Assembly: GCA_017650045.1 (NCBI GenBank)
Contig: JAGCFP010000015.1
Span: 1-45,633, forward strand
Source of the DNA: Bacteroidaceae bacterium
GTDB lineage: Bacteria; Bacteroidota; Bacteroidia; Bacteroidales; Bacteroidaceae
Direction: 5' to 3'
Length of the DNA stretch: 45,633 nucleotides
Both the position numbers and the translations under genes were made by a program. This document shows positions 21,938-34,978 of the stretch, piece by piece. Position 1 is the first letter of the stretch, and each line of letters begins with the position of its first letter. The notes under the pieces were generated by a model. That model worked only from the letters and a program-made list of their open reading frames with translations, was not told the DNA's origin and searched no databases.

Positions 21938-21968
21938 CTTGTTTATAAACTAATAACTTGTAACTTTG
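21938..21968 (+). promoter_or_regulatory. Promoter of K+ channel-CHASE2-caspase operon
   Basis: CTTG (21938-21941), 19 bp, then TAACTTTG (21961-21968), a perfect -7 element, 42 bases before the channel start. It is the only convincing promoter found for the six-gene run ending at 28360. Confidence 0.6.
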
Positions 21969-21976
21969 CAAAGTTA
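21961..21976. promoter_or_regulatory. Perfect 16-bp palindrome overlapping the -7 box
   Basis: TAACTTTGCAAAGTTA reads the same on both strands and covers the -7 element and the presumed start of transcription. That is an obvious place for a dimeric repressor to bind. It also creates a TAACTTTG box on the opposite strand. Confidence 0.6.
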
Positions 21977-22009
21977 AACTGCACTCATTTGCATTAAAAA
22001 AATGTTATT

Positions 22010-22798
22010 ATGAGTATCAGAAATAAAATATATCAACTGATAGGGCCTAATAGTTTCGACAACGATAATATTTGGTCCTCGATTTATCATTGGGTGATGT
22101 TCATCGTAATTCTGGTGAGCATTATACCTTTGATGTTTCGTAATCAGCCTCATTATTTCTGGTATTTCGACATTATTCCTGCAATTCTCTTTATTATTGA
22201 CTATATTCTTAGGTGGATGACAGCAGACCTAAACCTGAAAATGGGATGGAAATCATTCTTGGTGTATCCATTTACTCCAATGGCCATTATCGACTTACTG
22301 TCTATCTTGCCTACTGCCCATGTGCTGAATCCGGCATTCAAGACTACTCGTATGGTACGACTGCTGCGCATCGTACGCGTTATAAAATTTATACGCTACT
22401 TCGAGCCTCTGGATATCATCTCTACCGTAGTTCGCAAGCAACGACGTATTCTTTGTACAGTTGCTTCTTTAGCCGTATTCTATACGTTTATCACTGCACT
22501 GATCATGTTCAATGCCGAAGAGGAAATCAACCCCGATACTGGCGAATACCTGTTCAGTTCCTTTTTTGATGCGCTCTATTGGGCTGCCTGCACATTGACA
22601 ACAGTGGGTTATGGTGACCTGTATCCTATATCAGATTTAGGACGTCTTATCAGTATGATATCAGCCTTTGTGGGCATTGCCATTATAGCCTTACCCTCTG
22701 GTGTCATCACTGCAGGTTATCTTGAAGAACTGAAGATCAAGCGCGAACAGAAAGAGGCAAAAAAGATTAACAAACAACCGACTGACCAACAACTATGA
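22010..22798 (+). CDS. Voltage-gated-type potassium channel
   Basis: 262-aa six-TM ion channel. S1-S3 fall at about residues 27-43, 52-70 and 84-101. An S4-like segment with regularly spaced arginines (TTRMVRLLRIVRVIKFIRYF) is at 112-131, S5 at about 148-166, and a pore helix with the K+ filter TTVGYGD at 197-203. S6 ends near residue 238, and a short charged cytoplasmic tail has no RCK or cyclic-nucleotide domain. It conducts K+ across the inner membrane, probably in response to voltage. It is the first gene of the operon and overlaps the CHASE2 gene by 4 bp, so channel and sensor are made together. Confidence 0.93.
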   Translation: MSIRNKIYQLIGPNSFDNDNIWSSIYHWVMFIVILVSIIPLMFRNQPHYFWYFDIIPAILFIIDYILRWMTADLNLKMGWKSFLVYPFTPMAIIDLLSILPTAHVLNPAFKTTRMVRLLRIVRVIKFIRYFEPLDIISTVVRKQRRILCTVASLAVFYTFITALIMFNAEEEINPDTGEYLFSSFFDALYWAACTLTTVGYGDLYPISDLGRLISMISAFVGIAIIALPSGVITAGYLEELKIKREQKEAKKINKQPTDQQL

Positions 22799-24000
22799 AA
22801 CTGCTAAACAAAATAAAGAAGTTTTTCAATGAGAACTTGCATCTCATGTTCCATCGAGACCATATCATCGTGGTGTTGTTGGCATGGGCGATTGCAGGTT
22901 TCTGGGCAGCCTTTTTCGTTAACTTCTCTATCTTTGACCCTGTGAATCGTGCATTAAGCGATTTTAAGATGACAGACATCTACTTTGCCATTCAGCGTAT
23001 GGGGCATCAAGTAAACTGGAGTAACGACATCGTTTTGATTGATATTACCGAGCAATATAATCGTGATGAAATAGCTCATACTATTGAGCAGGTCGCTGCT
23101 TGCGAACCTAAAACGGTGATGATGGACCTTATTTTTGAGAAAGAAGGAGATGACCTTGTTGCAAATGGCGAACTAATCAGTGCCATTGACCAAGTCCCAG
23201 ATGCTGTACTCTCATGTAAACTCATCGCCTCATCCGAAAAACGCGGTGTATTCGTAGACTGTATAAAATCTTTCTTTGAAGATTTTGGTGACTATACGTG
23301 GGCATACAGCAATGTAACCAAAAAAGAAGCGAACTCTAATCTACGCGATTACACGATGTATCAAAGCTTAGATACGACCACTTATTATTCACTGGCGTAT
23401 TTGTCGGCTTGTCATTATTTAGGCAAACAGCCAAAGAAAGAGAGCAACAACCAGCGTACTATCATATATTCGGACACAGAGTTCCCTGTAGTGCATTTTG
23501 ATTCTATCATGCAAAACAAAGCACTTATAAAGAATCGTCTTGCCATCATAGGAACGATGAATGAGGAAGCAGACATGCATTTCACTCCTGTAGGGAAGAT
23601 GCCCGGAATGAAAACGCAGGCCTATGCTGCACATACTTATATGTACCATCACAATATTTCAATCATGTCGAATGCTTTATCGTGGATATTTACTGTCATA
23701 ATCTGTCTTATTGCAGCTTATTTAGGAATGCTTGCTAAATTGAAATCACCACGATTCTACATTTACTGGACGAAATTGATATATTTGATTATCTGTACTA
23801 TCATGGCATGGATAGGTTTCATTTGTTTCGTGAAATATGACTATGATATTTCATTATTGCTGCCATTATTAGGAGTAGCATTCATGGAACGAGGACGTAT
23901 CCACTATATGTGGTTTATTGACTATTGTACCATTCATCCTCAATGGAAGCGATTGTACAAGTTTGCCTCTGAATCTGTTTATTTTAAACCCCCAAAATAA
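22795..24000 (+). CDS. CHASE2-domain membrane protein
   Basis: 401-aa protein with one N-terminal TM (about 22-43), a periplasmic CHASE2-like sensor domain (about 50-285) and three TM helices near residues 293-314, 325-346 and 351-365. Only about 35 cytoplasmic residues follow. CHASE2 features seen include DIVLIDITEQY, CEPKTVMMDLIFEKEGDDLVANGELISAI (key part VMMDLIFEKE), KNRLAIIGTMNEEADMHFTPVG and MPGMKTQAYAAHTY. Most CHASE2 receptors carry a kinase or cyclase after the TM triplet; here there is no output domain. It may signal through a partner, perhaps the channel or the caspase-like protein. It overlaps the channel gene by 4 bp. Confidence 0.85.
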   Translation: MKLLNKIKKFFNENLHLMFHRDHIIVVLLAWAIAGFWAAFFVNFSIFDPVNRALSDFKMTDIYFAIQRMGHQVNWSNDIVLIDITEQYNRDEIAHTIEQVAACEPKTVMMDLIFEKEGDDLVANGELISAIDQVPDAVLSCKLIASSEKRGVFVDCIKSFFEDFGDYTWAYSNVTKKEANSNLRDYTMYQSLDTTTYYSLAYLSACHYLGKQPKKESNNQRTIIYSDTEFPVVHFDSIMQNKALIKNRLAIIGTMNEEADMHFTPVGKMPGMKTQAYAAHTYMYHHNISIMSNALSWIFTVIICLIAAYLGMLAKLKSPRFYIYWTKLIYLIICTIMAWIGFICFVKYDYDISLLLPLLGVAFMERGRIHYMWFIDYCTIHPQWKRLYKFASESVYFKPPK

Positions 24001-24014
24001 ATCCTATAAGAAGT

Positions 24015-25748
24015 ATGAAAAAGATATGTTACATTCTTTTACTGTTGATGATAGGAGTACACTCAACCAACGCTCAACAGACAGCAGATGAGTTGCTAAA
24101 GAAAGGCGATTCGCTTTATGAGCAAAAAAAATTCCAAGAGGCTGTTGATTGCTATAAGCAAGCTGCTCAACAGGGTAATGTTGAAGCTCAGTTCAATTTG
24201 GGATATGCTTTATATAATGGTGAAGGGGTGGATAAAGACTATGCTTCAGCAGCTATGTGGTTTAAACGAGCTGCAAGACAGAACTTTGCCAAAGCCCAAT
24301 ACAACCTTGCATACTGCTATATGAATGGCCGTGGAGTACCAACCGATTATGACAAGGCACTGAGATACCTCACGGATGCTGCAAATAACGGAAATCAAAA
24401 TGCTCAGCTTACCATGGCAGAATGCTATGAGAAAGGCGTGCTAACCATCCAAGACCAACGATTAAGCCAACTCTGGAAAGATAAGGCTGCTGGCAAATAT
24501 AATGGAGTCATAGAGTCTCCTGAATTGGAAGAGATTGCCCAAGCAGCTCCTTCGCCAACTACCACAGAGCCTAAGCAAGAAGACTTGGATCCAAATTCTG
24601 AAATCGTGATAGATCTTGGAGAACCAGAAGTAGCACAGAATACTCCTGCTAAACCTACAACTCCAGCACAACCAACTCAACAGGCGTCACAAGCATCATC
24701 TACAAAAGTAGTGCGCGCCACACCTCCAGAGGTAAAGATTCTTTATCCTGAAGATCAGAGTTTCTTCCATACCGAGACTATCAAACTGAAATATCAGTTA
24801 CTAGCACAAGGATTGGAAAACGAAACGAAGATAACCGTGATGGTAGATGGGCAGAAACAGCCAACTGATCGTGCTGTACGTGCTGCTAATACGATTGACG
24901 TAGACCTTCCTAATCGCGACTGCACAGTAACTATTTATGCACAGAATGAGAATGGAAACAGTGAACCTACCTCTATTCGTCTCATTAGAGAAAGTCTACC
25001 AACACAACTGCCAAGGCTTTTTGCTATTTGTTTAGGCGTAGGTGACTATAACGACCCTCAATTACCGAAACTTAAATACACGACTAAGGATGCTCAAGAT
25101 TTTGCAAATGCTCTTATGACCAAGAAAGGTTTGCCATATCAAGAGGTACAAGTTAAAGTACTCACAGATCAAGAGTGTACCCGTGATGACTTCTTTGAAG
25201 CCATGGAATGGTTGAAACAAGAAGCCTCGCCTAATGATATTTGTGTATTTTTCTATGCAGGCCACGGTTTCCGGGATGAAAAAGACCGTTTCTATTTCAT
25301 GAACTACGGTAGTAGCACAAGCAAACTATACAATTGTTTCAGTAGTAATGATTTTAGAACTGCCTGCGAAGACATCAACAGCAAGTTCATTGTATTAGTG
25401 GACGCTTGCTATTCAGGAGCGTTAATGGGAGGCGATCGTTCTGCTGCTACTTCACACTTCGTTGAACAATTACGTCGTACTAAGAATGGTATGGTGATGT
25501 ACGCCTCTAGTGCCAGCGATACCAAATCAAAAGAGAATGAAGAGTGGAAAAACGGAGCTTTCACTAAGGCACTTTGTGAGGCATTTAACGGTGCTGCACG
25601 TACGCCTGAAGATGAAGGTCTCTCTACACAACAACTTGACCAATTTCTCTATAAAGAAGTACGAAAACTGACTGATTTTAAACAAACTCCAATATTTATG
25701 AACCCAAATGGAATGGAACCATTTTACATCTTTACATATGAAAAATAA
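24015..25748 (+). CDS. Exported Sel1-repeat caspase-like protease (peptidase C14 family)
   Basis: 577-aa secreted protein. The signal peptide ends near residue 20 (STNAQQ). Sel1/TPR-like repeats span about 23-160 (AQFNLGYALYNGEGVDKDYASAAMW, AQYNLAYCYMNGRGV). A Pro/Thr/Gln-rich linker covers 175-235 and a beta-sandwich-like segment 238-325. A caspase-fold domain covers about 333-577. The catalytic His is His417 in FFYAGHG and the nucleophile Cys465 in VDACYSG, so the dyad is intact. Homologues are metacaspase/orthocaspase-like proteases, often Arg/Lys-specific and Ca-activated, but specificity is not readable here. The export signal places a caspase outside the cytoplasm. It starts 14 bp after CHASE2 and its end overlaps the next gene by 11 bp. 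Confidence 0.9.
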   Translation: MKKICYILLLLMIGVHSTNAQQTADELLKKGDSLYEQKKFQEAVDCYKQAAQQGNVEAQFNLGYALYNGEGVDKDYASAAMWFKRAARQNFAKAQYNLAYCYMNGRGVPTDYDKALRYLTDAANNGNQNAQLTMAECYEKGVLTIQDQRLSQLWKDKAAGKYNGVIESPELEEIAQAAPSPTTTEPKQEDLDPNSEIVIDLGEPEVAQNTPAKPTTPAQPTQQASQASSTKVVRATPPEVKILYPEDQSFFHTETIKLKYQLLAQGLENETKITVMVDGQKQPTDRAVRAANTIDVDLPNRDCTVTIYAQNENGNSEPTSIRLIRESLPTQLPRLFAICLGVGDYNDPQLPKLKYTTKDAQDFANALMTKKGLPYQEVQVKVLTDQECTRDDFFEAMEWLKQEASPNDICVFFYAGHGFRDEKDRFYFMNYGSSTSKLYNCFSSNDFRTACEDINSKFIVLVDACYSGALMGGDRSAATSHFVEQLRRTKNGMVMYASSASDTKSKENEEWKNGAFTKALCEAFNGAARTPEDEGLSTQQLDQFLYKEVRKLTDFKQTPIFMNPNGMEPFYIFTYEK

Positions 25749-26649
25749 GAATACCAATTTGAAAAGATGGCTTATGGCCTTGATGTTGGCTTTACCTTTA
25801 TGTGTATTCGCTGACGATTATTTAGTATATTCAGTTGTTGGAAGTGCAAAACTCTCACAAGGAGGCAAGGAGGTTGGTTTGCAACCAAGCCAGAGTCTCA
25901 CTTCCAATTCAAGACTGATTATAGGTGACGAAAGTGCTGTAACAGTACTAGATGAAACTAACAGTAAGATGTATTCTTTTACAAAAGTAGGGAGCTCTAC
26001 TGTTAGTGAACTTGTTGCTTCTGCAAATGAACCAAAGAGTCTTTCGAAGCAGTACCTCAGTTACATGGTTAAACAGATCTTCTCTAAGGAAAGCAAGAAT
26101 CTGTCACACCCAAATACCTACATGCAGTCAACTGCCACTTCATATCGTGCTACTTCAACTGACTCATTGCTGTTGAATAAGATCAGCAATATGTTCCCAA
26201 GTGGCGTTCCTGTAGAAAGCAGTGTTATTCAACCACAACAACTTGTCAGTTCCGATCTTGACGTGCGATTTGAATTGATTAACGCGACAACAGGACTCCC
26301 TATTAATCGCGAAGTGGACGTTAATACCAGTTGCTACATCCGTGTAACAAATGACACACAGGAGCCTCTGTATGTTAATGTCTTAGACATAGATACTGCT
26401 GGTAATAAATACCTCGTTCTTCCTGTTGATGAGGCAGCTATATGCGCACACCTATTAGTACCAGCACGCAGTACTGTGTCTTTCAAATCAGAACCTTTTG
26501 AGTTTACTGAACCAAAATCAAAAGAAACCTTTTTGCTTATAGCTACTGAAGAACCCGTAGATTTCAGTATACTGATGAGTCCTATTCAGGGAAATGGAGG
26601 AAAAGAACTGAAATCGGGCATTTATCGTTTGTTCTACGAAACCAAATAA
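25738..26649 (+). CDS. Exported DUF4384-like protein next to caspase
   Basis: 303-aa exported protein from the chosen start MKNKNTNLKRWLMALMLALP, which gives a clean signal peptide (cut near VFADD). An earlier in-frame Met at 25708 would bury the signal and is rejected. Residues 25-85 (YLVYSVVGSAKLSQGGKEVGLQPSQSLT) look like a FecR-like or SH3-like beta domain. The C-terminal half contains INREVDVNTSCYIRVTNDTQ and PLYVNVLDIDTAGNKYLVLP (overlapping description), the pattern I associate with DUF4384, a domain often next to or fused with bacterial caspases. It overlaps the caspase gene by 11 bp, pointing to joint function. Confidence 0.75.
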   Translation: MKNKNTNLKRWLMALMLALPLCVFADDYLVYSVVGSAKLSQGGKEVGLQPSQSLTSNSRLIIGDESAVTVLDETNSKMYSFTKVGSSTVSELVASANEPKSLSKQYLSYMVKQIFSKESKNLSHPNTYMQSTATSYRATSTDSLLLNKISNMFPSGVPVESSVIQPQQLVSSDLDVRFELINATTGLPINREVDVNTSCYIRVTNDTQEPLYVNVLDIDTAGNKYLVLPVDEAAICAHLLVPARSTVSFKSEPFEFTEPKSKETFLLIATEEPVDFSILMSPIQGNGGKELKSGIYRLFYETK

Positions 26650-26662
26650 ATAGAAATCGGTC

Positions 26663-27346
26663 ATGAGTAAGAAGATCTTCATATACTTTTGTGCAGTACT
26701 CATCCTGAGCACTGGTACTATCTTTGCACAAGAACGTGACAAGAAGGTTGCTGACGATCTGCTTTATGAACAACTTTGTGCTAATAATACGACGGAAAAT
26801 TTTCATGCACCATTCAAAGTATCAGCGCAAAAACTGAAAAACACAAAGGAAAAAGGCATCTTCCTACTACAAGGTGATACCTTTCAAATTCGTTCGCTTT
26901 CTACCGATTGTTATGTACGTAAACAAAATGGCGAGTATGTTCCGATTTTTGATGCTAAATATCCGATGGAATCATTTATTTCTTTGCTACTGAATCGCGT
27001 AAATAAAAATAATCTGATAATTAGCATTAATCAGCATCTTTATGGGGGGGCCAAAAAAGTACCACCAATGCCTATGCAAAACATTTATGACTTGCTATCA
27101 CGTAATATGGATGCATATTGTAGTGTGACTGAAACCAATAAAGAGCATCTGAAAGCTTTACTTGTCTTTCATCACCAGAAAATAGACTTCATCCACATGT
27201 TTATAATTACCATTCCTACCAACCAATTATTTAAAAATGGGGGTATGGTTACTGCAGAACTATATGGCAATATTCCGCAGAAGAATGTAAAATCTCTCTT
27301 TTCTAATTATAAACAAGCAGATGCACAATATCCTGTTGAATACTAA
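26663..27346 (+). CDS. Exported protein of unknown function in caspase operon
   Basis: 227-aa protein with a signal peptide (KKIFIYFCAVLILSTGTIFAQ). I do not recognise a family. The middle contains LLQGDTFQIRSLSTDCYVRKQNGEY and SFISLLLNRVNKNNLIISINQHLYGG (key parts), and the end is VTAELYGNIPQKNVKSLFSNY. A run of seven G at 27044-27050, followed closely by six A, lies in its coding sequence, an unusual homopolymer for this AT-rich gene that could allow slippage. It lies 13 bp after the DUF4384-like gene and 18 bp before the next gene. Confidence 0.75.
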   Translation: MSKKIFIYFCAVLILSTGTIFAQERDKKVADDLLYEQLCANNTTENFHAPFKVSAQKLKNTKEKGIFLLQGDTFQIRSLSTDCYVRKQNGEYVPIFDAKYPMESFISLLLNRVNKNNLIISINQHLYGGAKKVPPMPMQNIYDLLSRNMDAYCSVTETNKEHLKALLVFHHQKIDFIHMFIITIPTNQLFKNGGMVTAELYGNIPQKNVKSLFSNYKQADAQYPVEY

Positions 27347-27364
27347 TTAAAATATAATGATAAA

Positions 27365-28360
27365 ATGAAAACTTTTAGACTTAAACAATTGATAATAGTA
27401 TGGCTTCTGGCAATCGTTGGCATGCCTGTCTTTGCTGATGGTCCTACCTTCAAAATAGCAGATGGGGCTGTTGATGCTGTCGTCAAGGAACACATGGAGA
27501 CGAATGTCAATGCAATGATAGCGTTATTCAAGCAGGCAGCAGATGACCAACAAGAAAAGATAAAATTGCCAAAAGAGAATTTTACTCAACAGGCCATTGA
27601 TGATATCCAAGACATGTGGAAAGCCAGCGCTATGAGCTGCCCGCCAATGGATATCAGGAGTCGATGCTTAAGAACCTCTTCTGGCTATCAGGTTCGTGGA
27701 ATTCCTATAGATCTTGTAGAAGCAGATCCAGAAGAATCTCGCCAAGAGTTAACTATTGATTTCACTTCTGATGGTAAAATCAGCGGTGTATCTATCTCTA
27801 TAGACTTACATCGGTACGAAGAAATCATGGCAGAGAAATCTAGTGATCTGGATTATGAACGTCGTCAGATTATTGTTGACTTTGTAGAGAATTTCCGTAC
27901 TGCATACAATCGTAAAGATTTACCACTGCTCACCAGTGTTTATTCTGACAAGGCTTTGATTATTACTGGTCGTGTAATTAAAGAAAAGCCAAACAGCGAA
28001 CTTGATCGCCTGACTCTTAATAACAATAAGGTGGTATATACCAAACAAACAAAGCAGGAGTATCTCACTAATCTGGCACGTGTATTTAGAAACACTAAAT
28101 ATATCAACGTGAAGTTTGATGAGATTGAGGTTGTTCAACATCCTAAATACGATGATATATATGGTGTGACACTGAAACAAGATTGGCATACCGATCGCTA
28201 TAGTGATGAAGGCTATCTTTTCTTAATGATTGACTTCAGAGATGAAAATAATCCTTTAATTCAAGTTCGTACTTGGCAACCATACAAGAGTTCCGATGGT
28301 CAAGTGGTTACCAAACGTGAAGATGTTTACCATTTAGGATCTTTCAGAATTGTAAGATAA
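27365..28360 (+). CDS. Exported protein with possible NTF2/SnoaL-like domain
   Basis: 331-aa protein with a signal peptide ending near VFADG. The C-terminal region (from RRQIIVDFVENFRTAYNRKD, about residue 160) resembles an NTF2-like fold: a helix bearing the AYNRKDLPLLTSVYSDKALII pattern, then strands ending in LFLMIDFRDENNPLIQVRTWQP (key parts). The N-terminal 140 residues are unassigned and include a Cys pair (MSCPPMDIRSRC). It is the last gene of the operon; the terminator at 28381-28406 follows. It probably binds a small ligand or a partner rather than being an enzyme, which is inference. Confidence 0.75.
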   Translation: MKTFRLKQLIIVWLLAIVGMPVFADGPTFKIADGAVDAVVKEHMETNVNAMIALFKQAADDQQEKIKLPKENFTQQAIDDIQDMWKASAMSCPPMDIRSRCLRTSSGYQVRGIPIDLVEADPEESRQELTIDFTSDGKISGVSISIDLHRYEEIMAEKSSDLDYERRQIIVDFVENFRTAYNRKDLPLLTSVYSDKALIITGRVIKEKPNSELDRLTLNNNKVVYTKQTKQEYLTNLARVFRNTKYINVKFDEIEVVQHPKYDDIYGVTLKQDWHTDRYSDEGYLFLMIDFRDENNPLIQVRTWQPYKSSDGQVVTKREDVYHLGSFRIVR

Positions 28361-28380
28361 CGATAGTATTATAATAGAAA

Positions 28381-28412
28381 AGTGGGGATGGCTAACCATC
28401 CCCACTTCTTTT
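28381..28412. terminator. Strong bidirectional terminator
   Basis: Arms AGTGGGGATGG (28381-28391) and CCATCCCCACT (28396-28406) surround the loop CTAA, followed by TCTTTTTT. It separates the caspase operon from the convergent pilus operon. Confidence 0.9.
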
Positions 28413-28430
28413 TTATAAAATAGACGAATG

Positions 28431-29801
28431 TTAGAAAGCAAAACCTATACCGAAGCTTACTACACTCTTGCCCATGAAATCCTGCAATGCATTATTCAAA
28501 GCAAAGCGATAATGGTAGCTTGCGCGCACAGCGAAATAACTATATTTAAAGGCCAAACCAACTTCAGGAGTGATGGCGATAGCTGCATTGAGTTTCTGAC
28601 CATCATCCTTCTGTATATCAAGAATGTCAGCCTCTGGAGTAGGATAACCATGCTTGTCAGGATGTGAGTTCTTATCTATCTTTGCATAGTCACCATAATA
28701 ACCCTTAACTGTCACACCAGGACCAAAAGTTGCCCAAACAGGGAGTTTACCAATACGTTTAGTCCAACCAATGCCAAAGTTAGCTTCAGGATGATCTGGT
28801 ATAGCATTAGAGTTGTTGCTCTGCATAGCACTCAGAAGCTTTGAGTTGATATTCAAATGAATGAAAATACCACCCTTGGTATTATTATAACGACCGTAAT
28901 GAATACCTATAGGAGCATCATCCATCCACTCATACATAATCACACTGGCATGTTCTTCCTTAGCAGTAAGATAATTACCAATACTATTCAGTCGTTCTGT
29001 AGCCGTCTTAGCTTGTTCACAACCATTATCCACTACGCGCTGATACAAGGTACGAGCCTTCTCATAAAGCTTGTTGTCGAAATATGCCTCAGCTTGCTTA
29101 AATGCCACAGCGCATTCAGAGGTGAATTGTTCTTGACATTCGCGTAGTTTTGAGGTAGCATAAGCATCATAGGAGTTGATACGCACTATATTAGAGAAGA
29201 CCTCTGCTGCTGCGGAGTAGTCAAGCATACGATATAAAATATCAGCATCTTCACGAAGCTTAATAAGCGAATCCACTTTAATAATGTTCAAGTTATTCTC
29301 AAGCGTATCACAATCAGAACATTGTTTAGCTACATTGAATTGATTAAGTGCCTCTTGATAGTTAGCATTCTGTATTTCCCTCACACCCATGTTTCGATGC
29401 GTACGGTAGCAACCCTGATCCACCAAGGAGTTTGGATCAGAAATCTTGAATGTACGCAATTGCTTAGGCTCCAAATCCAAAGGCAGTTCTACAGGATTAT
29501 AACCAGGTGCGGAAATAGTGATGACACGACCACGATAGCGAGGACCAGCAGGAAACTCAATGAAGTAAATGGAGTCTGTACCTTGAATCTCCGTACTAAA
29601 TAAGTCTACACTCTTATCCATAGTGGAAGAGAAACTCAGTGGGATAGTATGGTTACAACGAATCTCCACAGCTGCCTGGTCGCCCGAACTAGAATATACG
29701 GCATTGGCTTGCGAGAGGTCTTCCACCTCAAGCACCCCTTGTGCTCTTGCCATAAATGCAATGGCACCAAGAATCAGTGTAAGTAATATTTTCCTATACA
29801 T
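28431..29801 (-). CDS. Exported PEGA-like/TPR protein with putative C-terminal beta-barrel
   Basis: 456-aa exported protein with a signal peptide ending near MARAQG. Residues 60-125 have PEGA-like strands (GPRYRGRVITISAPGYNPVELPLDL, key part VITISAPGYNPVELP). Residues 130-290 carry TPR-like helices (YQEALNQFNVAKQC, YSAAAEVFSNIVRIN, LYEKARTLYQRVVDNGC). The last 160 residues alternate as amphipathic strands (FGIGWTKRIGKLPVWATFG, YSYFAVRASYHYRF) and end in Phe (FGIGFAF), typical of outer-membrane barrels. I infer an outer-membrane scaffold. It starts 33 bp after the last fimbrillin on the same strand, so it may be the tail of the pilus operon; independent transcription is possible. Confidence 0.7.
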   Translation of the reverse strand: MYRKILLTLILGAIAFMARAQGVLEVEDLSQANAVYSSSGDQAAVEIRCNHTIPLSFSSTMDKSVDLFSTEIQGTDSIYFIEFPAGPRYRGRVITISAPGYNPVELPLDLEPKQLRTFKISDPNSLVDQGCYRTHRNMGVREIQNANYQEALNQFNVAKQCSDCDTLENNLNIIKVDSLIKLREDADILYRMLDYSAAAEVFSNIVRINSYDAYATSKLRECQEQFTSECAVAFKQAEAYFDNKLYEKARTLYQRVVDNGCEQAKTATERLNSIGNYLTAKEEHASVIMYEWMDDAPIGIHYGRYNNTKGGIFIHLNINSKLLSAMQSNNSNAIPDHPEANFGIGWTKRIGKLPVWATFGPGVTVKGYYGDYAKIDKNSHPDKHGYPTPEADILDIQKDDGQKLNAAIAITPEVGLAFKYSYFAVRASYHYRFALNNALQDFMGKSVVSFGIGFAF

Positions 29802-29834: not shown

Positions 29835-30602
29835 TTAAACACCACTAGAATATTTAGTATAGTTAGTATACTTTCCTTTGGCTACTCTAATGGAAGTTGG
29901 TGCTTGTTGATCATCTATACCTAAATACACATCAACAGGATTATCTGGATGAACAATTAAGTAATAAGAATCTGGCATCATATAAGGTAAGATACTCCCT
30001 ACATTAAAAATAGTACTACTATCAGCTCCAGATAAAGGCTCACCTGTTTCTAAAACTACATTGAAAATAGCAAGTCCCATTTCATGATCCATCTTAAAAG
30101 ATACTGTACCTGTACTTGAATCATAAGTTCCTAAAGAGGTCATCAAGTCACTCGCCATATAATTCTCTAATGTACTCTGGTCAGTCTGGGGAACAAAGTC
30201 ACTTATATAGTTACTAAAAAATTCTGTAGCAGTAGATGCTGATAGAATCAATTTCGATGTATCAAGGTCATAATTATATGGATAGTATGCGAAATACTTA
30301 TAGTTATCAAATTTAGGATTACAAGGAATAAAAGCAAACCATTCATTTCCATCATAGGAACAAGGTTCGTGATAAAGAATATTATTTGCATCAACTACGA
30401 TAATCCCAATTTCATCTCCTTCAGTGAAAGTAGTGTTCAGACCATCCAAAGTAGCTCTAGTCATGATCCCCCCCTGATCTACTTTGATAGAAAGCATGCG
30501 ACTAGCCTGCACTTCTACTTCTTGTTCTTGAGTACAAGCACAAAAGGAAAACAACGTCAAAATGACTACTGCTATGATAGAATTTACTTTCATCTGTTCC
30601 AA
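29835..30602 (-). CDS. Fimbrillin family lipoprotein (fourth of four)
   Basis: 255-aa type V pilin-like lipoprotein with a lipobox ending at Cys23 (FSFCAC). It carries the fimbrillin N-terminal pattern: a short strand, then GIMTRATLDGLNTTFTEGDEIGI. An Arg near residue 50 could be the protease cleavage site before strand-exchange assembly. The rest is beta-rich (YYPYNYDLDTSKLIL, MGLAIFNVVL). It is shorter than its neighbours. Seven consecutive G on the coding strand (30468-30474) lie just before the TR motif. It starts 2 bp after the preceding fimbrillin stop. A second Met at residue 4 is an alternative start. Confidence 0.75.
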   Translation of the reverse strand: MEQMKVNSIIAVVILTLFSFCACTQEQEVEVQASRMLSIKVDQGGIMTRATLDGLNTTFTEGDEIGIIVVDANNILYHEPCSYDGNEWFAFIPCNPKFDNYKYFAYYPYNYDLDTSKLILSASTATEFFSNYISDFVPQTDQSTLENYMASDLMTSLGTYDSSTGTVSFKMDHEMGLAIFNVVLETGEPLSGADSSTIFNVGSILPYMMPDSYYLIVHPDNPVDVYLGIDDQQAPTSIRVAKGKYTNYTKYSSGV

Positions 30603-30604
30603 AA

Positions 30605-31543
30605 TTAATTATTAGGACTCCAAGGCGTCACAGAATTATTAGTGCCACCATCATCAGTACCCACTGTTACATCAAGAAAATCATTATAAACCGTAATCCT
30701 ATATGTATAGGTACGACCTGATTGCAAATTTGCTTCACCATATGAAGGTATAAAATAATACAAACCCATATCTGAGATTGCATCTATACCAATAAATCGA
30801 GTTCCACTATAATCATTAGGTATCAACAAAGCAGAGAATGCAGCATCGTAGCCATCTTCTGCTGTCGCATCATGAAACATTGTAATACCACCATATTCTG
30901 GGTAATTGGTAAAATTATTCCATGTACCATAATTTGCATTACCTGTGGGAGCGCTAAAATCTGCAGTAAGAGGGACGATGTCAATAGAGTTCCCTTCTTC
31001 ATCATAATCTGATCCTAAATTTACAGAAATATCATCAAGCTCAACAGTTGTTTTGAATTTCAACTGCACAATGACCCTTGCCAACTGATGATAGAAAGTA
31101 AGATGAGTATTCGATGGTGTCAATGTTCCCTTGGCATAAAGCAGATCATGCCTAGTATACCCAACATTCTCAGGACTTTGATCTTTAGGAATAGTAATTC
31201 CCGTCAAAGGCTCTGCCTCAACGAATCCACCTAACGACCAAGCCGTTACTTCAACACTATCAAAATCTGGAGACCATCTGAAAGGATCACTATTACCAAA
31301 AGTCGTTAATTCCCCTGTTTCAGCATCTTTAATGTAATATATCTTTATCTCATCTCCTATTTTCACAGCAACCTCATCACCAACACTCCATTGGTTATCA
31401 ACAGTAGAACGTGTCATAGGCATATCAGCATAGAGGACAAGGGGTTGTCCTCCTAAAGCTGACATGTCATCCTCACTACTGCAAGCCAACAAAGCAACTG
31501 CTGCAAATAGTAAAGTAATATGTATGAAAAATCTACTGTTCAT
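30605..31543 (-). CDS. Fimbrillin family lipoprotein (third of four)
   Basis: 312-aa lipoprotein with a lipobox at Cys21 (VALLACSS). It has MPMTRSTVDNQWSVGDEVAV, the fimbrillin pattern with a possible Arg cleavage site, then repeated beta strands. A conserved middle includes RHDLLYAKGTLTPSNTHLTFYHQLARVIVQL (key part LTFYHQLARVIVQL), which matches the fimbrillin-A-associated core. The tail SGRTYTYRITVYND precedes a final strand. It could be a stalk subunit or a minor tip/accessory pilin; which one cannot be told. Packed 8 bp after the upstream fimbrillin. Confidence 0.85.
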   Translation of the reverse strand: MNSRFFIHITLLFAAVALLACSSEDDMSALGGQPLVLYADMPMTRSTVDNQWSVGDEVAVKIGDEIKIYYIKDAETGELTTFGNSDPFRWSPDFDSVEVTAWSLGGFVEAEPLTGITIPKDQSPENVGYTRHDLLYAKGTLTPSNTHLTFYHQLARVIVQLKFKTTVELDDISVNLGSDYDEEGNSIDIVPLTADFSAPTGNANYGTWNNFTNYPEYGGITMFHDATAEDGYDAAFSALLIPNDYSGTRFIGIDAISDMGLYYFIPSYGEANLQSGRTYTYRITVYNDFLDVTVGTDDGGTNNSVTPWSPNN

Positions 31544-31551
31544 ATAGCCTT

Positions 31552-32466
31552 TTAATTACTTGCTTCACCTGTCACTTCAGCACCTGTTACCCAGTTGGTA
31601 ATAGAGGTGGTTGCCGTTATCTCATAGCGATTAGCAGTTAAATTATATGTATATACATTCCCAGAAACAAAAGTTGTATTAGCAGGTAATATATAAGTAA
31701 GCTTAGTTCCTGACTCCAAGACAATCTGTATGAATTCACTTTCTTCTTCAAGTAACTGAGGTACAATGATAGCACTATGATTCATAGCATTTGCAGACAA
31801 AGTTCCTGCAGTAATATCGAAAGCTGCAGCTGCTGAAGCTCCAGAAGCAGCACCAATTTCACCATTCGTTATATTAAAAGTTGTAGAAGGCAGAGTGTTT
31901 AAAATAGAAACCGTTGCATTGGCAAGTGAATCTGCAGTAAGACCTGTACCAATTTCCACATTTATATTAATCTTAGAAAGCATATGACTAAATGTCACAG
32001 CAACAGAACCAGCTTGACGACTCACAGGATTAGCGGCAGCACCTATCATCAAATCACTAGCATTATAATTGGCATCAGAACTTTGGTCTTCCATTACAGA
32101 AAAAACTACATCTGCATCAGCACTTGAAGCGATTCCAGCAGGGTAAACACCAAAGATATTCACCCCATTACCAGTGGTAGGATAACGTGGTGCATCCATA
32201 TAAGTATTTAAACCTCCTGTGCCATCTGCTGTATATTCAATCGGCTGAGGGTAGGTATAAGTTGGCGAATCTGCAGCTTCGCTAATAAAAATATCCACAT
32301 TCTCGTTAGCAGCAAATTGTGTGGCCTGCAAATTTTGAGCAGCACGAGTTTGCAACTGAGTCGTAGTACATAAACGAATCTCTCCGTTCCAGTTATCTAT
32401 CTCTTCATCATTGCTGCATGCGACAAATAATAGCGCAGAAACAGCTAAAATCATGTATTTTTTCAT
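31552..32466 (-). CDS. Fimbrillin family lipoprotein (second of four)
   Basis: 304-aa lipoprotein with a lipobox at Cys17 (LLFVACSN). The early part has TTQLQTRAAQNLQATQFAANENVDIFI, again a TRA site followed by the first beta strands. The core SVAVTFSHMLSKININVEIG is the fimbrillin hallmark. The C-terminus (SGNVYTYNLTANRYEITATTSITNWVTG) ends with the usual INDW-like WV motif. It lies 23 bp after the first fimbrillin gene. The similarity in layout to the first suggests duplication of a stalk pilin. Confidence 0.88.
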   Translation of the reverse strand: MKKYMILAVSALLFVACSNDEEIDNWNGEIRLCTTTQLQTRAAQNLQATQFAANENVDIFISEAADSPTYTYPQPIEYTADGTGGLNTYMDAPRYPTTGNGVNIFGVYPAGIASSADADVVFSVMEDQSSDANYNASDLMIGAAANPVSRQAGSVAVTFSHMLSKININVEIGTGLTADSLANATVSILNTLPSTTFNITNGEIGAASGASAAAAFDITAGTLSANAMNHSAIIVPQLLEEESEFIQIVLESGTKLTYILPANTTFVSGNVYTYNLTANRYEITATTSITNWVTGAEVTGEASN

Positions 32467-32489
32467 AATGGTATGTATTTTAATAATTA

Positions 32490-33389
32490 TTACTCAGCAT
32501 TTACATCCTCTCCACTGCCATTGCCAGAAGCCCAGTCTTCAATCTGTGATGTAACAATAATACCCGTCTTGTTGACGTTGACATTATAGATATATTTATT
32601 CCCTACAGCAAAACTCTGAGAATTTGCAGAATTACGTACAGCCCACGAATAAGTGCCTACTTCGGGTACCTCAAACTGAAGAACCATTCCTTCTGTTGTA
32701 GCGGCAGGCAGAACAATGGCCTCACTTGTAGTACCATCAGCAGAAGTCAGAAAAGAAAGTGTTGATACTTCTGTACCTGTTACTACCACATCAGCATTGG
32801 TTAAAACATTACAAGTTGCTGTGGTGTACTGGTTGGAAAGTGTAACTTTCATATTAGCCAGTTGTTCTGCAGTAATACCATCACCAGATCTTATATTAAG
32901 CTGGATTTTAACCAACTTATGTGAGAACACAAATGTAACATCTGGCTGTGTCTTATTGACATTATTAACAGCTGGAGAAACCATAAAGTCAATGGCCTCC
33001 TGATCTGTCTGGTCGCTTACATCTATGCTATACGTTCCATCACATCCAGTAACGTATGGATAATAAGCGAGTACACTACGAGACCCACCATCACTTGGTA
33101 ACCATACAATATCGTCATCAGTAGCTGCAGTAAAATTACCATCACCATCAGGCGTGATATATTTCTTATTTGCATATTCTGCTGTTGTTCCACTCATAGA
33201 GAATACACCAATTGCATCGTTTGCCGTCCAGGCATTGTTAGATGCACGTGTCTGTATACCAGCAGATACATTAATCTTAACTGGAGGTCCATAATCGATG
33301 ATAGCATCCTGTACTTCATCATTCCCGCAAGCAGTCAAAAATGTGACTGCAGTTAGCGCAGTTGCTACTAATGTAAAATACTTATTCAT
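32490..33389 (-). CDS. Fimbrillin family lipoprotein (first of four)
   Basis: 299-aa lipoprotein with a lipobox at Cys21 (TFLTACGN). The early part GIQTRASNNAWTANDAIGVFS has the TRA site. The core PDVTFVFSHKLVKIQLNIRSG and the end NKYIYNVNVNKTGIIVTSQIEDWASG are characteristic of fimbrillin-A-like proteins. It is exported, lipidated and probably polymerised on the surface after removal of the N-terminal strand. It is the first fimbrillin after the anchor-like lipoprotein and so the best candidate for the main stalk subunit. Confidence 0.88.
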   Translation of the reverse strand: MNKYFTLVATALTAVTFLTACGNDEVQDAIIDYGPPVKINVSAGIQTRASNNAWTANDAIGVFSMSGTTAEYANKKYITPDGDGNFTAATDDDIVWLPSDGGSRSVLAYYPYVTGCDGTYSIDVSDQTDQEAIDFMVSPAVNNVNKTQPDVTFVFSHKLVKIQLNIRSGDGITAEQLANMKVTLSNQYTTATCNVLTNADVVVTGTEVSTLSFLTSADGTTSEAIVLPAATTEGMVLQFEVPEVGTYSWAVRNSANSQSFAVGNKYIYNVNVNKTGIIVTSQIEDWASGNGSGEDVNAE

Positions 33390-33426
33390 ATCGCTTTGTT
33401 TTTATTATTATCAATAACCTAGTTTT

Positions 33427-34320
33427 CTATTTAACTATAATTTCACCATTATCTACATCATGCCAGTCAATAATAGAAGCACCCATTCCGCCTGTTTCTT
33501 TTACAAAGAAATCAAACTCAGCAAGAGTAGTATCTGGTTTTAGACTAGCCCTAAAAGTCTGAGTAGTACCATCCGCATAAGTCACATCAAATGCCAATTG
33601 TCCATCTTCAACATCAATAAGATCAACAAAACGTACAACAGCCTGATATACGGGCGTCTTCTTGCCAATGAGTTCTTCATCTTGCCCATCATACTCCTTA
33701 TAGATAAGGGTCATAGGCATCAATATCTCACCTACTTCTGTTCCTTTTTCAAGTGTCAGTAGATTCACAGAATCTATGACACCATTTAATGTGCCAGTAA
33801 TGTTTGAGACAAGATCTTCATCACCTGGCCACATATAAATATTTATTACCAACTCATGAATAAGCTGGTGCATTTTGAGATCTACCTGTGACGTACTATT
33901 TCTAAGAATCTTTACATGCTCAACCTGAGAAGAATAGAGGAAATCTGGCATTCTCAAATATGTGCCATCACTTTCCTTATTTACGGTAGCATTAAAGTTC
34001 TCATCAATAGTCACCCCCTTAGGCATATTATAGGCAAAAATACTATAGTCACCTGCTATGATTCTTCGCCAATTATAAGTAGCATTGTTCGTCTCAAACT
34101 TTTTCCCATTCAAGTCAATCAGATACCCATTTTCAGGTGGAGTGATAATATCTGTTTCATTCCAAATAGTATTTACAGTCAATGCAGCTTGTTTCCAAGC
34201 ATTGGGATCGTAAAAGTCTTCGTCTTCTTCTGGTAATAAGTACAATTTATCCTTGACACACGATGTTGCCATCGTGAGAACTAATAAGGCTAATATAATA
34301 TTATATGTATACTGCTTCAT
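33427..34320 (-). CDS. DUF5119/FimB-Mfa2-like pilus accessory lipoprotein
   Basis: 297-aa lipoprotein with a lipobox at Cys21 (LTMATSC). Residues after the Cys begin KDKLYLLPEE, as in FimB/Mfa2 and DUF5119 proteins, followed by two beta-domain-like halves (ALTVNTIWNET, AGDYSIFAYN; then LKMHQLIHELVINIYMWPG and PVYQAVVRFVDLIDVEDGQL). Such proteins anchor or cap the type V pilus. It lies between the DUF3575 gene and the first fimbrillin, the usual order in these loci. No Arg cleavage site is evident near the N-terminus, as expected for an anchor that keeps its lipid. Confidence 0.8.
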   Translation of the reverse strand: MKQYTYNIILALLVLTMATSCVKDKLYLLPEEDEDFYDPNAWKQAALTVNTIWNETDIITPPENGYLIDLNGKKFETNNATYNWRRIIAGDYSIFAYNMPKGVTIDENFNATVNKESDGTYLRMPDFLYSSQVEHVKILRNSTSQVDLKMHQLIHELVINIYMWPGDEDLVSNITGTLNGVIDSVNLLTLEKGTEVGEILMPMTLIYKEYDGQDEELIGKKTPVYQAVVRFVDLIDVEDGQLAFDVTYADGTTQTFRASLKPDTTLAEFDFFVKETGGMGASIIDWHDVDNGEIIVK

Positions 34321-34332
34321 GTTCTATCAAGG

Positions 34333-34920
34333 TTATAAAATATTCATGACCAGAGCTATAGAGAGGTGATTAATGCCCCAATAGTTCTTATCTCCCTTAC
34401 CCGTAAGATATCGAGTACCATTAAGAACTTTATAATTCTCATAAGAAGCATGGGTACAACCCAATCCACCTGTGAAATCTATATAATATCTCTTATTACG
34501 TAGATGCAAACGATATCCTGCTGTGATACCACCACCAATTATATCACCTTGCTTAGCATGCGCTGAAGTAAAGCCATAATTAAACTGACCTCCATAAACA
34601 CGAAGACCAACATACCAAGGGAGTTCTGTACTCATATAGCCCATGTAGTGCCTAACTTCCCCCGCAAATTCTTTCAAAGCATATCGACGGGTATTATTTT
34701 TGAAACTCCATCTAGTCCAAGTAGCAGATGCAAGTACACTCCAATCTTTCTTTACTTGCCATTCAACACCAATATCAGGAGTAAGAGTTGCCCAACGCAA
34801 AAGATTTGTACGTACAAAAATATGTTCATCCTCTTGGGCATGAAGACTGCACAAAGAAGGCACAATCATAATGAGAACTAAAAGCACTCTAATTATTGTA
34901 TGTCTGCATATGTACTTCAT
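34333..34920 (-). CDS. DUF3575 family protein of the pilus locus
   Basis: 195-aa exported protein from the chosen start MKYICRHTIIRVLLVLIMIV, which gives a clean signal peptide ending in SLHAQ. The ATG nine codons upstream (34947) falls on the promoter -7 box and is rejected. The sequence fits DUF3575 (VRTNLLRWATLTPDIGVEWQV, ATWTRWSFKNNTRRY, RHYMGYMSTELPWYVGLRVYGG; key parts only). DUF3575 is a probable outer-membrane beta-barrel that often heads type V pilus loci. It is the first gene of the operon, 12 bp before the DUF5119-like gene. Confidence 0.85.
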   Translation of the reverse strand: MKYICRHTIIRVLLVLIMIVPSLCSLHAQEDEHIFVRTNLLRWATLTPDIGVEWQVKKDWSVLASATWTRWSFKNNTRRYALKEFAGEVRHYMGYMSTELPWYVGLRVYGGQFNYGFTSAHAKQGDIIGGGITAGYRLHLRNKRYYIDFTGGLGCTHASYENYKVLNGTRYLTGKGDKNYWGINHLSIALVMNIL

Positions 34921-34944
34921 ACCATTATGATGACTAATAATAGG

Positions 34945-34978
34945 CAAATGTAACCATTATTTAGCTTCATTAAGCAAA
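34945..34978 (-). promoter_or_regulatory. Promoter of type V pilus operon
   Basis: On the minus strand TTTG (34975-34978), 22 bp, then TACATTTG (34945-34952). Both elements match, though the spacing is 2 bp longer than usual. It decides the start of the DUF3575 gene at 34920. The remaining divergent gap up to 35135 is AT-rich, with nothing recognised. Confidence 0.5.

Follow-up and report, generated by a model that had tools for sequence, protein, structure and literature searches.

The window analysed here is the 45,633-nucleotide (nt) stretch of contig JAGCFP010000015.1 (positions 1 to 45,633, forward strand) from a Bacteroidaceae bacterium, and it harbours a set of closely packed genes which is best read as a real conserved operon. 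The conserved core is composed of a CHASE2 sensor, a Sel1-repeat caspase, a FecR-like/DUF4384 protein, P5 and P6, with a 456-amino-acid (aa) TPR protein as the seventh member. With a probability of roughly 0.4, the unit would be a periplasmic protease module which is gated by CHASE2 and the FecR-like protein and acts on a complex of the envelope.

The stand-alone CHASE2 protein (22795..24000, + strand, 401 aa) carried the periplasmic-type sensor domain CHASE2 (PF05226, 3.1e-18, 66.7 bits against a cut-off of 26.3), and hydropathy gave one N-terminal and two clear C-terminal transmembrane (TM) segments. No other Pfam domain was found on it and thus no output domain, as an earlier note on this DNA had stated, nor was a response regulator found with Pfam among the six genes from the upstream K+ channel gene to P6. 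A 7-row CHASE2 profile matched no PDB chain at E<=1. The Sel1-repeat caspase (24015..25748, + strand) starts after a gap of 14 nt and contains Sel1 repeats (4.4e-25) and a Peptidase_C14 domain (PF00656, 2e-21, 77.2 bits against a cut-off of 21.4). It is a predicted protease with a conserved His-Cys dyad, since His417 and Cys465, described earlier as intact, were invariant in 7/7 Sel1-caspases, that of the window included; with the EACC1-associated caspase model NF047832 it scored 101.2 bits, below the cut-off of 140. Its N-terminus is signal-peptide-like by our own hydrophobicity rule (limit 2.0), which was used for all such calls, and this suggests that the caspase is exported.

The next gene (25738..26649, + strand) overlaps the caspase gene by 11 nt; its open reading frame (ORF) may open at 25708, and the start at 25738 was favoured because of the signal peptide. 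The product had been called DUF4384-like, which held as a match just under the cut-off (1.8e-5, 25.2 bits against 27), but an N-terminal FecR-like domain, revealed by profile comparison, had been overlooked. P5 (26663..27346, + strand) and P6 (27365..28360, + strand) follow with the remaining gaps being 13-18 nt, and the gene of the 456-aa protein (28431..29801, - strand) is inverted behind them; all three products have signal-peptide-like N-termini, as has the FecR-like one. The TM segments and the N-termini of the soluble proteins are in agreement with the earlier proposal of a membrane-bound or exported signalling or proteolysis unit, and the pairing of a sensor with a putatively exported caspase suggests proteolytic signalling outside the cytoplasm.

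A single scan of named genomes with a caspase-domain alignment gave six loci related to the operon (L090-L095). L090 belongs to a Bacteroidaceae metagenome-assembled genome (MAG) from goat omasum, with a caspase 97% identical to that of the window, and L091-L095 belong to Prevotella or Prevotellaceae MAGs, one of them from water deer colon. CHASE2, caspase and FecR-like/DUF4384 protein were present in 6/6 relatives with P5-P6 after them in 5/6, and the complete five-gene order was observed in the window and 5/6 relatives. The 456-aa-type gene is in line with the operon in L092-L095 and inverted in the window and its sibling L090, while in L091 the first three genes are followed by a GSCFA protein and a Mur ligase/alanine racemase instead of P5-P6. 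The earlier note had proposed a six-gene unit and a search for its co-occurrence; five of the genes were indeed conserved together, but the channel, found in 1/6 relatives (L090), falls outside the unit, and the inverted 456-aa gene belongs to it as a partner. Between the window and L090, dN/dS was 0.02-0.08 for the six operon genes and 0.01-0.08 over all seven, which are thus under strong purifying selection.

The wider distribution was read from a family sample of 201 Bacteroidaceae genomes, a class sample of 247 Bacteroidia genomes and a phylum sample. A CHASE2 relative existed in 29/201 family genomes and in 26/247 class-sample genomes, where 25/28 places had an open frame of 364-455 aa; outside the class the frames were mostly about 650-940 aa among the phylum-sample matches listed. 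A gene matching our own FecR-like profile adjoins CHASE2 in 22/29 recognised family genes and is at most three genes away in 23/29, and in a wider set of class loci plus five phylum-sample ones it adjoins CHASE2 in 19/32 and is within three genes in 22/32. Short CHASE2 proteins with an adjoining FecR-like gene recur across Bacteroidia. In the gene-neighbour count 2/31 family loci (L049 and L053) were scored without CHASE2, the gene there being lost by ORF pruning; CHASE2 was placed in both by the family search, with CHAT downstream.

In the family sample, a TPR-CHAT gene lay downstream of 16/33 CHASE2 places, in the same orientation and at a near-constant 2.7-3.9 kb, versus 0.09 expected by chance when a mean genome of 2.9 Mb is presumed, and a listed caspase was within 10 kb in 4/33. 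The 33 places came from 35 CHASE2 rows, two of which were second pieces of counted genes, and the count took in all 78 CHAT rows and only 15 caspase rows, those from CHASE2 genomes, with one G197 row on another contig omitted; the family caspase listing missed the caspase beside CHASE2 of G170, which was confirmed by Pfam. Counted by genes, CHAT or caspase lies at most six genes from CHASE2 in 19/29 family genes and 8/32 wider-set genes, and a FecR-like/caspase fusion (L123) is among the protease-bearing loci of the wider set. Given how often CHAT sits downstream of CHASE2, the slot for a clan CD protease seems to be exchangeable, with the caspase as one of its occupants. His and Cys were kept in 17/17 CHAT domains of CHASE2 loci, and 39/40 CHAT or caspase ORFs above 300 aa in these loci have a signal-peptide-like N-terminus, with one contig counted twice in the tally (L039 is L095, on the same contig as G100:C183).

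In the CHASE2 tree (61 rows), the rows linked to Sel1-caspases formed one clade (100/99), and those linked to LRR-caspases were interspersed with CHAT-linked ones (20-row group, 95/71), a pattern that an exchange of proteases would produce. The three protease labels needed 13 changes on the tree versus a shuffled mean of 26.9. L068, L069 and L116-L118 (length), L090 and L095 (near-copies) and L049 and L053 (pruning) were omitted from the tree, and L066, L067, L105, L119 and L120 carry a long-branch warning. Away from CHASE2, several Bacteroidaceae showed a second arrangement, in which CHAT adjoins a small caspase of ~270-310 aa whose N-terminus is signal-peptide-like, at G077:C11, G118:C6, G154:C6 and similar places, and in L132, L133 and L136.

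For the proposed module, the inner-membrane CHASE2 protein would sense a periplasmic cue together with the FecR-like periplasmic protein, and because CHASE2 has no cytoplasmic output the signal would travel laterally within the periplasm and reach an exported cysteine protease of clan CD, which would be the Sel1-caspase here and TPR-CHAT in most protease-linked family relatives. CHASE2 and the FecR-like protein may hold or release this protease by periplasmic contact, the simplest reading since CHASE2 has no output domain and the soluble partners all have signal-peptide-like N-termini. The protease could then cleave or remodel a complex of the envelope made up of P5, P6 and the TPR/barrel-like protein of 456 aa, which might serve as target or platform, with envelope maintenance or surface remodelling as a possible outcome.

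Several observations weigh against this mechanism. Many CHASE2-FecR pairs were without a nearby protease (of the CHASE2 genes counted, 19/29 in the family and 8/32 in the wider set have one within six genes), and by a simple motif search both catalytic motifs were present in 18/23 caspase ORFs of CHASE2 loci, three being without His and two without Cys. Signal-peptide-like N-termini were also found on 20/25 unlinked CHAT-region proteins and 16/20 unlinked caspases, with controls taken in list order from 20 regions each; the CHAT-region set includes three small caspases and leaves one protein cut by a contig edge uncounted, and 3/9 of the unlinked proteins failing the rule scored 1.92-1.97, barely below 2.0. 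Signal peptides were hence rejected as a specific mark of linked proteases, the unlinked ones being positive nearly as often, and from these controls exported clan CD proteases seem common in Bacteroidaceae whatever their neighbours. P5-P6 mostly occur without CHASE2 or caspase. Finally, the match of the FecR-like profile to true FecR was modest (probability 67.6%, 54 columns in hhalign), and Pfam FecR matched 0/10 scanned FecR-like proteins (the window, L050 and eight others).

The frequent separation of P5-P6 from the sensor bears on another explanation, in which a P5-P6-outer-membrane protein (OMP) module for assembly or transport and a CHASE2-caspase-FecR/DUF4384 module are independent and share a transcript in one lineage. 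P6 was downstream of P5 on the same strand in 35/35 P5 places (the count took in every P5 row and 39 P6 rows from a longer P6 list), yet among the 201 family genomes, of which 67 had P6 relatives and 32 had P5, P5 and CHASE2 were together only in the window and G100. The other partners of P5-P6 are Sel1/TPR or tubulin-like genes: among 20 context loci hand-picked from the P5 and P6 lists, and so not random, the order Sel1/TPR protein, P5, P6 and 456-aa-type protein was found in 8, and a Tubulin_2-like gene before P5 in 11, with a zinc-ribbon-like partner (weak Pfam match) in 12. The other P5-P6 neighbourhoods examined gave no match to our own CHASE2, caspase, CHAT or FecR-like profiles, and the first three genes exist without P5-P6 in L091. 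Two unrelated modules are nevertheless unlikely, as the five-gene order with overlapping or near-overlapping genes was kept in the window and 5/6 relatives, and the Sel1 part of the window caspase matched the Sel1/TPR partner of P5-P6 loci at 2e-36. The caspase may have taken the place of that Sel1/TPR partner, and this is put cautiously because Sel1 repeats are generic.

If the periplasmic protease module is extended further, P5, P6 and the OMP could be an undescribed envelope machine whose drivers are interchangeable. A Sel1/TPR scaffold would be one such driver, and a tubulin-like protein, linked via a zinc-ribbon-like protein anchored in the membrane, another; the third, that of the window, would be an exported caspase under CHASE2/FecR control, a wholly extracytoplasmic caspase cascade switched by CHASE2 through periplasmic contact. 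This extension is speculative, and we consider it improbable in its full form.

No Pfam domain or other recognised domain was found on P5; a LolA-like assignment (NF053572) at 22 bits against a 100-bit cut-off was not adopted, and three marginal matches to PDB sequences at about 0.012 were taken as chance. P6 ends in a C-terminal NTF2-like domain with sub-threshold Pfam matches, and against PDB sequences it gave only chance-level matches to unrelated chains. The 456-aa protein has TPR-like repeats, which score under the Pfam cut-offs, and a C terminus that reads like an outer-membrane barrel. In L078-L089, for example L082:6903-15639, a Tubulin_2-like gene, a zinc-ribbon-like/TM gene, P5, a ~280-aa protein, P6 and further proteins were arranged together as an operon of Bacteroidaceae, the Tubulin_2-type gene being present in 11/12 of these loci (PF13809, 7e-56 in L082), which ties a tubulin-like protein to an envelope module. 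The P6-type NTF2-like domain also ends proteins of ~640-690 aa (L127:4220-6280, L128:3522-5447 and L129:3390-5306), and in L127 and L129 these adjoin a gene matching a transglutaminase-region profile.

The missing Pfam FecR matches would favour the view that the FecR-like domain is an unrelated small beta domain, and that CHASE2 pairs with some other partner. This was judged doubtful, since the hhalign comparison with four FecR proteins (three Pfam-tested, positive) reached E 5e-5, and in L191 our own profile picked out, at 8e-4, a FecR protein that is Pfam-positive and lies near a large CHASE2. In 20 places with a large CHASE2 outside the class, 3/5 candidate proteins were Pfam-positive for FecR, each two genes upstream. 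In family f89, MutS and further genes that follow CHASE2-FecR were rejected as unrelated neighbours. In L050, L055 and L060 a recurring set of CHASE2, a FecR-like/transglutaminase-like protein (with a Pfam match just under the cut-off in L050) and a separate DUF4384-like protein was observed, together with a second caspase type, whose LRR domain was scanned in L050 only; L059 had the same set without a caspase in the genes examined.

An Mfa-like fimbrillin gene (29835..30602, - strand; PF13149, 8.5e-14) adjoins the module in the window, homologues of the window ORFs at 30605-34947 were downstream in the sibling L090, and the caspase has a signal-peptide-like N-terminus, so the module could be considered to process surface proteins, for instance this fimbrillin, or to control their quality; the earlier note had considered processing for the neighbouring pili. 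However, no other window ORF of at least 70 aa had a match in the sequences flanking the module in L091-L095, and the fimbrillin was unmatched even in L090. The pilus genes thus do not travel with the module, and such a role in surface processing is quite improbable compared with the gated periplasmic protease.

The voltage-gated-type K+ channel (22010..22798, + strand) matched Ion_trans (PF00520, 2.6e-27, 96 bits against a cut-off of 25), with a TVGYG filter and a basic S4 read in the translation and five hydropathy segments above threshold. As a component of the module it was rejected, being present only in the window and its sibling. Some channel relative existed in 41/101 genomes elsewhere, and near the six closest of these places (47-66% identity) no CHASE2, caspase, CHAT, FecR-like, P5 or P6 gene was found with our own profiles. 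The channel is best regarded as a local addition, a co-opted or merely inserted neighbour in one lineage. The depolarisation and the K+ or voltage trigger raised in the earlier note are without comparative support, since the channel lies outside the conserved set of genes.

Defence or regulated cell death, in which the caspase would execute and the channel would depolarise the membrane, is the least probable explanation: caspase domains act in described bacterial conflict systems (PMC8195603), and the channel gene shares 4 nt with that of CHASE2 and evolves under purifying selection, but the channel is confined to one lineage, the caspase N-terminus is of secretion type, no NTPase or nucleotide-sensor domain was found with Pfam among the six genes, the six proteins had no PADLOC hits beyond a weak one to a generic caspase model (7.5e-10) and a marginal PtuA repeat match (0.0099), and no match was obtained in phages for the caspase domain or in plasmids for the CHASE2 protein and the DNA of the operon. 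Neither defence nor cell death thus found support, and no useful function came from the PHROGs matches obtained for the channel and the caspase.

The six genes described earlier, their domains, a promoter-like site and the terminator were all recovered. The promoter-like site TTG-N19-TAACTTTG (21939..21968, + strand), 41 nt upstream of the channel start codon, follows a pattern which we take to be the Bacteroidota-type promoter consensus; taken alone it is weak, because chance would give 0.89 matches per window. A scan for sigma-70 hexamers was uninformative, with 31 sites versus 28.1 expected in shuffles, and Bacteroidota-type patterns were used instead. The intrinsic terminator-like hairpin (28380..28407, + strand; 12 pairs and a T run) lies between the convergent genes.

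The usual output of a CHASE2 receptor is a kinase or cyclase in the cytoplasm. The CHASE2 proteins of the Bacteroidia sample are mostly too short for either, and in Bacteroidaceae a secretion-type CHAT or caspase is often in the place of the output. If the proteins interact as proposed, common gut bacteria would possess a periplasmic proteolytic signalling route, exported bacterial caspases would have a testable regulator, and the exchange of proteases could be traced on related sensors; this would be a mode of CHASE2 signalling absent from the literature found. Text searches, with subscription journals mostly outside their coverage, gave no paper on CHASE2 with CHAT (with or without caspase), none on a periplasmic or FecR-linked caspase-CHAT of Bacteroidetes and no relevant one on CHASE2 in Prevotella; for CHASE2 with FecR they led to the Burkholderia operon described below, and no function assigned to this family set was met in them, in line with the earlier note.

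Among the closest systems are the CHASE2-FecR-like-TPR-CHAT operons of Bacteroidaceae, with a related CHASE2, a FecR-like gene and a secretion-type clan CD protease; they differ in having CHAT instead of caspase, no P5/P6, a DUF4384 profile match only in L066, and an OmpA-like gene upstream in many. The P5-P6 modules with Sel1/TPR or Tubulin_2 share P5 and P6, and the Sel1 type also shares the 456-aa-type protein. OmpA was reported in 14 metacaspase operons (PMC3501461), and DUF4384 is an accessory domain of cyanobacterial orthocaspases (PMC7475262). Caspase is coupled to CHASE2 in the metacaspase-CHASE2 fusion of Trichodesmium, whose caspase was placed in the cytoplasm by the authors (PMC3501461, PMC2853523), and in EACC2-caspase proteins, which may end in CHASE2 (PMC8195603). 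In those both domains are on one polypeptide, whereas the window and 6/6 relatives have separate genes, a secretion-type caspase and a FecR-like partner. The BiofilmReg operon of Burkholderia (PMC5192318) consists of a response regulator, a LysM-FecR protein, a CHASE2 histidine kinase and a DUF4136 protein. Both systems encode a CHASE2 sensor, in BiofilmReg beside a periplasmic FecR-domain protein and in the window near a protein that is FecR-like by profile but not by Pfam. In BiofilmReg CHASE2 is fused to a histidine kinase working with a response regulator, while CHASE2 of the window, for which no output domain could be found, adjoins a protease whose N-terminus is signal-peptide-like. A pairing of CHASE2 with FecR is known, and the window would vary it by a secretion-type protease in place of the kinase.

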